A DNA stretch of 60,743 nt from IMG/VR virus record IMGVR_UViG_3300013285_000001, positions 1 to 60,743 of that record. The stretch is one strand, 5' to 3'. This document shows positions 26,933 to 29,987 of this stretch, piece after piece. Origin of the DNA: a virus. The notes beneath the pieces were generated by a model that saw only the letters and a program-made list of their open reading frames with translations, had not been told where the DNA came from and did not search any database. A program made the translations under genes and the position numbers. Position 1 is the first letter of the stretch; every line of letters starts with the position of its first letter.

Positions 26933-27295
26933 TCAAGTGTGAATGCCCCACTTGTGCTCGTTGCTCGGCGGCTCGACGCTCACCGTGTAGGTCGGGGCAG
27001 ACCCGTCGAGGCTCTGTGCCGGCCCGCTGTAGATCAGCCCGCCCATGAGCTGCCGGCGCTGCTTGCCGTCACCGATCATGAAAGCAAAGCTGTGAGGTGC
27101 GAAGTCCTTGTGGACGAAGCACAGATCCGGCCATGAGGTCATGCCGGCCAAACGCGCGAACATCGAGTTCAGCTGGTCGCGGCACCCGTGCTCTTCGGCG
27201 AACTGGATGACGTCTTCGTAGTGCTGTTTGCACTCGATGACCAGACCCAGTTTTTCTTCTTGGTACTTACTTGCTGTAGTTGTAGGCATAGCCAC
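26933..27295 (-). CDS. DUF4120-like protein
   Basis: A 120-residue protein. The sequence LGLVIECKQHYEDVIQFAEE, LARLAG-type helix, FVHKDFAPHSFAF, GGLIYSGP and C-terminal VEPPSNEHKWGIHT match the layout I recall for DUF4120 (HKDFAPxSFxF and GGLIYHGP motifs, ending W-x-I-H-T). The role is unknown. It is often near replication genes. Its first 29 bp overlap the 3' end of the DNA polymerase gene. Confidence 0.8.
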   Translation of the reverse strand: MAMPTTTASKYQEEKLGLVIECKQHYEDVIQFAEEHGCRDQLNSMFARLAGMTSWPDLCFVHKDFAPHSFAFMIGDGKQRRQLMGGLIYSGPAQSLDGSAPTYTVSVEPPSNEHKWGIHT

Positions 27296-29987
27296 CTTCT
27301 GCTGCTAGAGGAATATCCGCACACCAAGGTGGCGGGGTTTGCATGATCTCGATCATCTTGGCGAACGATGATTCGGCTTGGTCTTCAGGAACGCAGGTAA
27401 CGATCTCATCGTGCGTGGTCATCACCACGCGCATGGTCTTGGAGATTTCCAGCATCTGGTGCGAGCACACGATGATCCTGGCGAGAGCTTGGACAATGTT
27501 TTCACATAGCTTGCCGGAGTAGATCTTCGTGCGTGACTTTTTGGATTGGTATGACCACTCTTCCATACCCTGTTCGTTGAGGTCGCAGGAAAGGCCTGGG
27601 TACTTGAGCGCCATGCCGTTGGGCAACCAGATCGTCTCGAACTCGTAGTCGAGCGGGCCGAGCGTGTCCTTGGTGTTTGGCAGGGCCATGGCTTTGATGA
27701 CTTCACCGCACGTTGACCAGCCGTTGTAGATCTTCTTGTTGGTGGCTCTGTACTTGTTGACGATCTCCCTGCACTTGGCGGAGTCGAAGTGGACTGGAGG
27801 CCCGCCGAGCGCGCCCTTGGCCAACGTCAGCTGGAAGGTGAGCGGACCCATCTGGTAGCCGAGGCCCAAGACGCAATTGAAAACCAACACATCCGACACC
27901 GTGTACCGAAAACGCGGCCCTGCGTTGGCTATGTCGTAGACGCGAACTGTTCGAGTATTTGTTCTCCGGTCAAGCCTTTCCTCATGAGCTGGTATGTCCA
28001 GCTGTAGCTGTACGGACTCATGAAATCTGCTAGAGCTACAAGTTTTCCGTTCCACAGAATCTTTGCTGTGATGCGTCTGTTGCGTACTTGCTCTTTCCGT
28101 GTTGCCAACACGTACCGAGAGTCGTTTACGCGGTGTATCTGCGATGACGTGATCGTCACAGAACCGAACTTCTTGCCCAGCAGCTCCGGTACGTTGGAGC
28201 CCAACCATTTCGGATGCTGCTTGCCCGAGCGAAACAACCCGTCCGTCTTGGGCAAAGACTTCGTGGTCTGGTGTGGCTGTAAGACCGTCATACGTGATTA
28301 CCTCTTTGATACCTTGGTAAATGACTCCGCTATGAGTGACCCATTCGACGCCATCCCATAACCTGTCTTCAAGCGTGATCAGCTGTATGGGAACGAGTCC
28401 GCGATGGGTAAGAACGAGCGAACCTTCAGCAAAGCAGACCTTGCCAACGAATCGCTCCAGCTTGTCTTTCTTGGTGATCTCCCTGCCGTACACGGTGTCG
28501 CCGAACTTGCAGTACGCGTCGCGATCGCTTCCTGTGGCAAAACTTTGCTGATCCTTTGGTAGCTTGGCCTGAGCAGCGTCGTACTTGTCGGCGGCGCGGA
28601 AGGAGTCCAAGAGGTCTTTCTCGCCCCACAACCAGGCGTTGACTCGTGCCTCGATCTGGCCCGAGTCAGCGACGATCAGGACATGGCCTGGTGGCGCGAG
28701 GATGGACTGGCGCAGCTCGCCGCCACGGGTCAGGTTCTGCATGTTGATCTTGTTGTTGCCTCCGTACCGGCCGGTGTGAGCCCGGTAGTAGGAGTAACCG
28801 ACCGGCAGCTTCATCCCGTTGGCGCCGTCGCACAAGAACCTTTCGGCTTTGGTGGCGTTACCCACCGACTTGATGGCCAGGCGAGCGTCGACGAGGTTGC
28901 GAAGCCTGGCCTGCTTGGCGATGATTTCCGTCATGTCGTCAGGGTTGTCTACGTCGTAGTCAGATCCCCATACAGATATTTGTTCAGGAATGTCCAGGAA
29001 CTCGGTATCCGTCTTGGAGAACGCGTAGGAGTAGACCTCCTCGTCTTCACGTTCACTGGCGGGCTTCTTCAGCCATGCTGGCGAGACCTTCTCCGGCGGG
29101 ATAACTCCTTCAGCGCGCAGCAGCTCGGCGAACTTCGGGGAGCTGCCGACGACGCGCTTGATCACCAAATCATCGCGTTCTTTACCAACAAGGGCGCGTT
29201 CTTTCTTTGTCTTTAATACGGTCTTGTCGTCGTAGTAGTCGCCTGGGTTGAGGACGCTGGCGAGTGCGTCTTCACGTTGCTGTACTTCTCTGGCGTACTC
29301 GGCTTGCACACGTGGGATGTCCACCAGGAGCACCGGGTCGCAGAACATGCGCATCGTGAGGTCGATGATGTCCATCTCGGTGCTCGGCATCTTGGGGAGC
29401 ATGCACTTGAACACGTACAGCATTTCATCGACGTCGCCAACGCAGTACGGAGCCACGACGTCGAAGAGTTCTTGGTCCCAGTCGCGCACGCCCTTGGTGA
29501 GCTCAAGCACGCCGTCGATCTTGCCCTTGCCGCCATAGTGTTTAGACACCTCGTCCAGCCCGGCTCCGATGTCGTTGCTGTGCAGGCCACGGGCCATCGA
29601 CAAGGAGTCGAAGTAGTGGGACGGGATGACGTCGAAGTAGTGAGACAGGATGAACCCATCGAACTGCACGTTGTGGCACAGCAGGGTGTGGGTAGCCCAG
29701 TCGATCGATTTGACGATGGACTCGACTTGAGATCCGTCGACGATCTGGGTAGGCCAGAGGCCCACCTTGATCCCCATCATCTGCAGCTTGAACTCGTCGT
29801 CGCGCACGTACCCGGACGTGCTCATCTTGGACAGCGAGAAGTTCGTGTCGTAGTAGGTCTCGAAGTCAATGCACACCAGGCGGTCGTAGTCGACAACGGT
29901 TGGTGTGATCGAGGGTCCGGCGAAGGGTCTGCGTTCTTTCAGAATCTGCGCTTGCAGCGCCTTGGCCCAGCCGGTGGGTTTGGTCAT
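27267..29987 (-). CDS. Family A DNA polymerase interrupted by an intein
   Basis: A 906-residue precursor, about 719 residues after splicing. Residues 38-300 carry a 3'-5' exonuclease: CIDFET with D41 and E43, LLCHNVQFDGF and YCVGDVDEM. The polymerase domain has motif A at D441 (VADSGQIEARVNAWLWG), motif B split as RFVGKV / CVLGLGYQMG, and motif C H859-D860-E861 (MTTHDEIV). Motif A has Gly where Tyr/Ser-Gln is usual. An intein occupies residues 518-704 exactly at motif B, so splicing is needed for activity. The start ATG overlaps the helicase stop (ATGA). It replicates the phage genome. Confidence 0.92.
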   Translation of the reverse strand: MTKPTGWAKALQAQILKERRPFAGPSITPTVVDYDRLVCIDFETYYDTNFSLSKMSTSGYVRDDEFKLQMMGIKVGLWPTQIVDGSQVESIVKSIDWATHTLLCHNVQFDGFILSHYFDVIPSHYFDSLSMARGLHSNDIGAGLDEVSKHYGGKGKIDGVLELTKGVRDWDQELFDVVAPYCVGDVDEMLYVFKCMLPKMPSTEMDIIDLTMRMFCDPVLLVDIPRVQAEYAREVQQREDALASVLNPGDYYDDKTVLKTKKERALVGKERDDLVIKRVVGSSPKFAELLRAEGVIPPEKVSPAWLKKPASEREDEEVYSYAFSKTDTEFLDIPEQISVWGSDYDVDNPDDMTEIIAKQARLRNLVDARLAIKSVGNATKAERFLCDGANGMKLPVGYSYYRAHTGRYGGNNKINMQNLTRGGELRQSILAPPGHVLIVADSGQIEARVNAWLWGEKDLLDSFRAADKYDAAQAKLPKDQQSFATGSDRDAYCKFGDTVYGREITKKDKLERFVGKVCFAEGSLVLTHRGLVPIQLITLEDRLWDGVEWVTHSGVIYQGIKEVITYDGLTATPDHEVFAQDGRVVSLGQAASEMVGLQRTGAAGQEVRFCDDHVIADTPRKRLSVRVGNTERASTQQTHHSKDSVERKTCSSSRFHESVQLQLDIPAHEERLDRRTNTRTVRVYDIANAGPRFRYTVSDVLVFNCVLGLGYQMGPLTFQLTLAKGALGGPPVHFDSAKCREIVNKYRATNKKIYNGWSTCGEVIKAMALPNTKDTLGPLDYEFETIWLPNGMALKYPGLSCDLNEQGMEEWSYQSKKSRTKIYSGKLCENIVQALARIIVCSHQMLEISKTMRVVMTTHDEIVTCVPEDQAESSFAKMIEIMQTPPPWCADIPLAAEGGYAYNYSK
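27876..28436 (-). other. Intein in DNA polymerase motif B (187 aa)
   Basis: This in-frame insert starts with Cys (CFAEGSLVLTHRGLVPI, block A) and has block B with T-x-x-H (GLTATPDHEVF, T55/H58). It ends with blocks F and G (RVYDIANAGPRFRYTVS, DVLVFN) and is followed by Cys. The flanks RFVGKV and CVLGLGYQMG join to a perfect polymerase motif B. The length of 187 residues leaves no room for an in-frame homing nuclease. Two oddities are Phe instead of the usual penultimate His, and Phe instead of His in block F. Both could slow Asn cyclisation, though inteins lacking the penultimate His can still splice. Confidence 0.9.
27929..28291 (-). CDS. ORF nested out of frame inside the intein
   Basis: A 120-codon ORF in a shifted frame on the same strand as the polymerase, wholly inside the intein. 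It has its own Shine-Dalgarno AAAGAGG 9 nt before the ATG. The first 25 residues overlap intein block B and look like shadow sequence. From residue 37 it reads like a real domain: LLGKKFGSVTI, RYVLATRKEQ, then WNGKLVALADF and QLMRKGLTGEQILEQF, resembling the start and the helix-turn-helix of HNH or homing-associated DNA-binding proteins. No catalytic HNH is visible. The intein frame over the same bases is Arg-, Thr- and Ser-rich and featureless. Confidence 0.55.
   Translation of the reverse strand: MTVLQPHQTTKSLPKTDGLFRSGKQHPKWLGSNVPELLGKKFGSVTITSSQIHRVNDSRYVLATRKEQVRNRRITAKILWNGKLVALADFMSPYSYSWTYQLMRKGLTGEQILEQFASTT

Follow-up and report, generated by a model that had tools for sequence, protein, structure and literature searches.

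A motif-B intein in a viral DNA polymerase gene and the probable remnant of an HNH endonuclease gene encoded in a second frame

The viral DNA record IMGVR_UViG_3300013285_000001 of IMG/VR (60,743 nucleotides (nt); this whole stretch is referred to as the window, and all coordinates without a locus name are positions in it) contains a DNA polymerase gene that is interrupted in frame by an intein, and the intein contains a second open reading frame (ORF) in a shifted frame. Inteins are usually described with the homing endonuclease as a fused domain. Comparison with related loci indicates that the feature in the window is very probably a motif-B intein from a widespread group of phage polymerase inteins whose HNH homing endonuclease is encoded out of frame, and that the window copy has undergone deletion of the endonuclease core.

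Results

A motif-B intein in a family A DNA polymerase

The polymerase gene (27267-29987, minus strand, as are all of its parts and the nested ORF) consists of 906 codons and matches family A DNA polymerases (Pfam DNA_pol_A, 5.6e-11; PHROG DNA polymerase, 1.2e-61). The N-extein (28437-29987) and the C-extein (27267-27875), both parts of the polymerase gene, flank an intein of 187 residues (27876-28436) that is inserted at motif B between ERFVGKV and CVLGLGYQMG. The intein begins with CFAEG and ends with VLVFN; the Cys codon at 28434-28436 specifies its first residue and the Asn codon at 27876-27878 its last, and Cys+1 follows. The N-terminal splicing block (28251-28436), defined by an alignment of N blocks, contains Cys1, LWDGVEWV and the block B motif TPDH. 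The C-terminal splicing block (27876-27941) reads VYDIANAGPRFRYTVSDVLVFN. In a comparison of the window N-terminal splicing block with that of the related locus L001, 33 of 47 mismatches are found at intein codon position 3.

Relatives with empty sites confirm the insertion. Polymerases from other viral contigs align continuously over the junction, the closest at 69% identity, and relative to these homologues the insertion is clean and located at a conserved active-site motif. The terminal residues and the empty sites uphold the extent and the motif-B position that a preliminary description, made from the window alone, had assigned to the intein.

The nested ORF lacks the core of an HNH endonuclease

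The nested ORF, P0001 (27929-28291), comprises 120 codons in the +1 frame relative to the intein. Its Shine-Dalgarno (SD) sequence AAAGAGG (28301-28307) overlaps the Lys-Glu-Val codons of the intein and ends 9 nt before the ATG, as the preliminary description had it. Residues 1-61 (28109-28291; GKKFGSVTITSSQIHRV) match the front of full-length nested HNH proteins and are modeled at low confidence; residues 1-83 are 58% identical to the nested protein of L003. Residues 62-73 (28073-28108; LATRKEQVRNRR) correspond to the tail of the HNH core, and the approximately 100 residues that precede this tail in the relatives are missing. Residues 74-120 (27932-28072) form a C-terminal domain of two strands and two helices that resembles a DNA-binding domain and is predicted with a local distance difference test score (pLDDT) of 96-98. 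The proposed folded domain at residues 37-115 is thus retained for its C-terminal part, but residues 37-73 are not confidently folded.

An alignment of P0001 with 28 nested proteins requires a single gap of approximately 100 residues. In P0001, GKKFGSVTITSSQIHRVNDSRYV is immediately followed by the core tail and then by the C-terminal domain. Eleven residues of P0001, ATRKEQVRNRR, are identical to the core tail of the full-length HNH protein L104, and the C-terminal segment shares 38-41% identity with the HNH proteins L104-L108. The zinc cysteines and the YGGRGI and DRIDN motifs, which full-length relatives keep, are missing from P0001, which therefore has neither the DRID/N/R core residues nor the zinc cysteines of an HNH homing endonuclease. 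The profile search that had been proposed for NUMOD, HNH and AP2 families returned nothing: P0001 alone has no match in Pfam, PHROGs or NCBIfam and no HNH family assignment, so its identity derives from comparison with relatives only. Sequence searches of the PDB with the intein and with the nested proteins gave no usable match.

Within 28109-28200, a run of approximately 50 nt (CGGTTCTGTGACGATCACGTC.TCGCAGATACACCGCGTAAA) is nearly identical across the window, L001, L018 and L003 despite differing flanks. Its conservation exceeds the obvious need of either frame.

Relatives encode a complete HNH protein out of frame

The relatives were collected by an intein scan, which yielded 13 viral contigs, and by a scan with the N-block alignment, from which the best 80 of 393 were taken. 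The set was extended with loci from bacterial genomes and isolated phages and clustered at 90% identity into 78 clusters; L091, a mini-intein in appearance only and an artifact of de-duplication, was left out of the counts. Most inteins of the set reside in family A polymerases at slightly varying points around motif B, as judged from the flanking residues. In most relatives, the DNA between the splicing blocks holds a second long frame. A full-length HNH gene is found within the intein in 61 of the 78 clusters, in the +1 frame in 47 and the +2 frame in 14; none is in the intein frame. Five further clusters, including the window, contain a partial HNH gene, and 12 contain none. The intein frame is open in 76 of the 78. 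An in-frame fused HNH domain was looked for in the close relatives and was not found.

The tested nested proteins hit HNH endonuclease families of PHROG with E-values down to 4e-40, and C, R, C, Y, R, R, Y and N are invariant among the nested HNH proteins of the relatives. The relatives thus combine a profile match with the invariant core positions of HNH endonucleases. The model of the L003 nested protein has a mean pLDDT of 86. The idea that a homing-type gene is overprinted on the intein is strongly supported for the family. For the window ORF, which has lost the HNH core, any mobility would need another source.

Full-length HNH genes that have not been annotated are present in the +2 frame of Jerseyvirus and Dhillonvirus polymerase inteins, namely L101 (Salmonella phage SETP3, 2501-3397), L095, L099 and L100. 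The deposits examined from these genera annotate an intein-containing polymerase at most.

Both frames bear signs of selection in the family

Constraint on both frames across homologous inteins is evident from stop codons, substitution phase and start-signal codons. For the stop test, 54 full-length HNH proteins were recoded with synonymous codons drawn according to their own codon use. Over the HNH gene, 7 stops are seen in the intein frame, all in L009, versus approximately 415 expected, and the unused third frame contains 588 versus 584 expected. This test omitted loci without a recognizable in-frame C block, among which L064 has stops.

In pairwise comparisons of relatives, most changes in the splicing blocks are located at the third codon position of the intein frame. 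In the nested region, changes are located at the third position of the HNH frame, which is position 1 of the intein codon for +1 genes and position 2 for +2 genes. The pair L039/L090 differs at intein positions 1, 2 and 3 by 8/4/19 changes in the N block and 99/45/37 in the nested region, and the pair L069/L071 by 0/0/5 and 3/29/12. The rank order of the remaining two codon positions in the nested region is near that predicted from constraint on the HNH frame alone, and the intein-frame sequence in this region therefore behaves as a spacer.

The start signal of the nested gene leaves a trace in the codon use of the intein. In the +1 class, an ATG is found at intein nt 146 in 33 of 44 inteins, with an SD sequence in 30 of those, and at nt 134 in 8 more. 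The codons of E45 (GAG:GAA 26:3 in the +1 class versus 63:121 elsewhere; p=1.3e-8), K44 (AAG:AAA 15:14 versus 9:61; p=1.5e-4) and Y49 (TAT:TAC 32:8 versus 13:15; p=8e-3) are biased accordingly. The bias is not seen in mini-inteins or in the +2 class, both of which are small in number. An SD sequence was also looked for in the nested HNH genes of the +2 class (L005-L013, L069-L071 and L076), which exhibit no clear SD sequence and no conserved strong start. Taken together, these patterns indicate that both frames of the family are open and that both are under selection. The outcome that would have spoken against an overprinted gene, a nested frame without homologues and with all constraint confined to the frame of the intein, is thus not what the family exhibits.

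For the window itself, dual-frame selection is weakly supported. Relative to L001, 42 of 87 changes are located at the nested third position, an excess with p=0.003. The overlap is also uneven. In its first half the intein frame of the window is 79% identical to that of L001, and in its second half the nested frame is 48% alike, the intein frame 36% and the third frame 29%. The intein frame is thus not featureless across the whole overlap, contrary to the preliminary description.

Several observations weigh against an intein with an overprinted gene under two-frame selection. The penultimate residue of the window intein is Phe instead of the usual His. Among the relatives this residue is H, S, L, F or A, and working inteins with a variant penultimate residue are known. 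No Pfam or NCBIfam intein model matches the window intein above the cut-off; L003 and L011 match TIGR01445 only below the cut-off, and Vint is sub-threshold for L011. A Foldseek search with the window model and with a full nested model gave no significant PDB match. Among the substitution data, the pairs are not mutually independent; the equally core-less pair L001/L018 exhibits 25/26/25 changes and no phase bias; and the phase signal of the window could predate the loss of the core.

Loss of the core: remnant or retained protein

Because the central approximately 100 residues with the zinc cysteines and the HNH core are lost, the window ORF is most likely a degenerating remnant rather than an active homing gene, as judged from its sequence. 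L001 and L018 have also lost the core, with differing break points, and core loss therefore looks recurrent. Deletions that spare the intein frame are multiples of three, which keeps the nested frame in register.

An alternative, which we consider unlikely, is that the core-less ORF has been kept as a small DNA-binding protein that, for example, regulates its own expression or competes with intact relatives and so protects the polymerase target site from them. The intact SD sequence and ATG, the 120 open codons, the confidently predicted C-terminal domain, the closer likeness of the nested frame to L001 in the second half of the overlap and the excess of changes at the nested third position are all in keeping with a retained protein. 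However, the form seen in the window is shared with only two close relatives, L001 and L002, which are near-identical; L018 has lost most of the C-terminal domain as well and exhibits no bias; and the phase signal may be older than the deletion. We therefore favor decay and regard a retained DNA-binding role as a live rival.

Natural variants of the nested gene

The near-identical phages L001 (5922-6329) and L002 (4186-5124) differ in their second polymerase intein by a clean, in-frame block of 531 nt. The block of L002 contains an out-of-frame HNH gene with its own SD sequence (AGGAG) and ATG, and it is absent from L001, where the flanks are identical. The element can thus apparently do without the nested gene, whereas its intein frame is maintained. 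In L009 (2544-3455), the intein frame contains the seven stops noted above, the HNH gene is intact in the +2 frame, and the C-terminal intein half is preceded by its own AAAGGA and ATG. By its sequence, L009 looks like a split-intein-like state derived from the overprinted form, and L064 (3501-4500) may be a second such case.

Explanations without a spliced intein or without a nested gene

An out-of-frame HNH gene could also reside in an insertion that the host protein retains without splicing. This is the arrangement of the ShiLan domain, in which the insertion keeps the host-gene frame open over an out-of-frame HNH gene and homing was inferred (Arsenault, Gosselin and Gogarten 2025, PMC11855218). 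The ShiLan domain lacks an intein splicing domain, resides in a methylase host gene and starts with GTG without an SD sequence. The window differs on each count: the splicing blocks are present with Cys1, TPDH, the terminal Asn and Cys+1, and the conserved N and C blocks show the substitution pattern of protein-coding sequence in the intein frame. Furthermore, the insert lies in the O-helix of the polymerase, and failure to remove it from the protein would presumably be lethal. A ShiLan-type insertion is accordingly highly improbable.

Even less credible is a self-splicing RNA intron that carries the HNH gene. Phage HNH genes are often carried by group I introns, but the region 27000-29500 has no Rfam match at E-values up to 1, the intein motifs are conserved, and the intein frame is open in nearly all clusters; this candidate was rejected.

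The length of the nested ORF is weak evidence by itself, because the window contains 211 ORFs of at least 90 residues in all frames, with many chance ORFs of 90-130 codons among them, and because the nested frame remained open in 4.5% of trials in which the intein frame was recoded synonymously. A meaningless open frame in a GC-rich gene is nonetheless refuted almost beyond doubt by the specific homology of the ORF to nested HNH proteins, with which it shares the frame and the start position, and by the 11-residue identity to the core tail. Homology, substitution phase and the codon bias at the start signal together indicate that the nested ORF is real.

Downstream of the polymerase gene, the next ORF (26933-27295) has a GTG start inside the last polymerase codons and overlaps the gene by 29 nt.

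Discussion

We infer from these sequences that the inteins splice, that the nested ORF is translated and that the full-length endonucleases cut DNA. In full-length relatives, a ribosome on the precursor message would read the intein frame through the HNH region, and the two halves of the splicing domain would thereby be linked by 100-200 poorly conserved spacer residues. Another ribosome, initiating at the internal SD sequence and ATG just past the N-terminal splicing block, would produce the HNH protein. Protein splicing would preserve polymerase function, and the HNH protein would cut empty polymerase alleles, into which the element would be copied. After fixation the core may be lost, as exemplified by the window, where an in-frame deletion took out the zinc-binding part and the HNH core with both frames staying in register. 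What is left is a mini-intein, apparently splicing-competent, with a core-less DNA-binding remnant, which would place the element late in the homing cycle, in a phase of decay.

Similar arrangements exist elsewhere. Dassa and colleagues reportedly described, in 2009, fractured genes in which a free-standing endonuclease separates the two parts of a split intein. The endonuclease there stands apart from the splicing domain, a state that L009 resembles, whereas the window intein is contiguous. In Hamiltonella phage APSE-1 (NC_000935; L096, 2931-3353), the HNH gene P46 is annotated wholly inside the P45 polymerase intein on the same strand in the +1 frame. Unlike the window, APSE-1 has a full-length core and a different polymerase site (its C-extein begins with CENICQAAARD). 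The searchable literature yielded no text that discusses how P45 and P46 overlap. The polymerase inteins of Jerseyvirus and Dhillonvirus (SETP3, vB_SalS-S10 and Pubbukkers) also carry the HNH gene in another frame, but there it is in +2 and complete.

The kind of arrangement is itself not new, because APSE-1 P45/P46 has been deposited and an out-of-frame HNH gene without an intein has been published (PMC11855218). On overlapping frames, the latter paper cites Gosselin et al. 2025 (bioRxiv 10.1101/2025.01.02.630785), on non-canonical actinobacteriophage inteins, and Gorbalenya 1998; to judge from that citation, endonucleases encoded out of frame within inteins may have been described there already. 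The searchable literature, which does not include the Gosselin preprint or Gorbalenya 1998, gave no account of how widespread the arrangement is, of its occurrence in two frames, of the dual-frame statistics or of a core-less remnant.

We tentatively propose that an out-of-frame HNH gene could be the normal, stable state of a large group of phage polymerase inteins and could have arisen in at least two frames. Each element would then be a two-frame selfish gene with a linker selected only against stops, a direct route would lead to split inteins such as L009 and L064, and remnants like that of the window may still act. An endonuclease in a separate frame would decouple splicing from nuclease expression, so that one stretch of DNA serves two proteins. 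Such elements would offer a clean system for the evolution of overlapping genes, since the intein linker needs only to be free of stops, and they would explain odd, featureless intein linkers. They also suggest how split inteins could arise from contiguous ones and imply that the annotations of common phages, such as the Salmonella Jerseyvirus, miss a gene.
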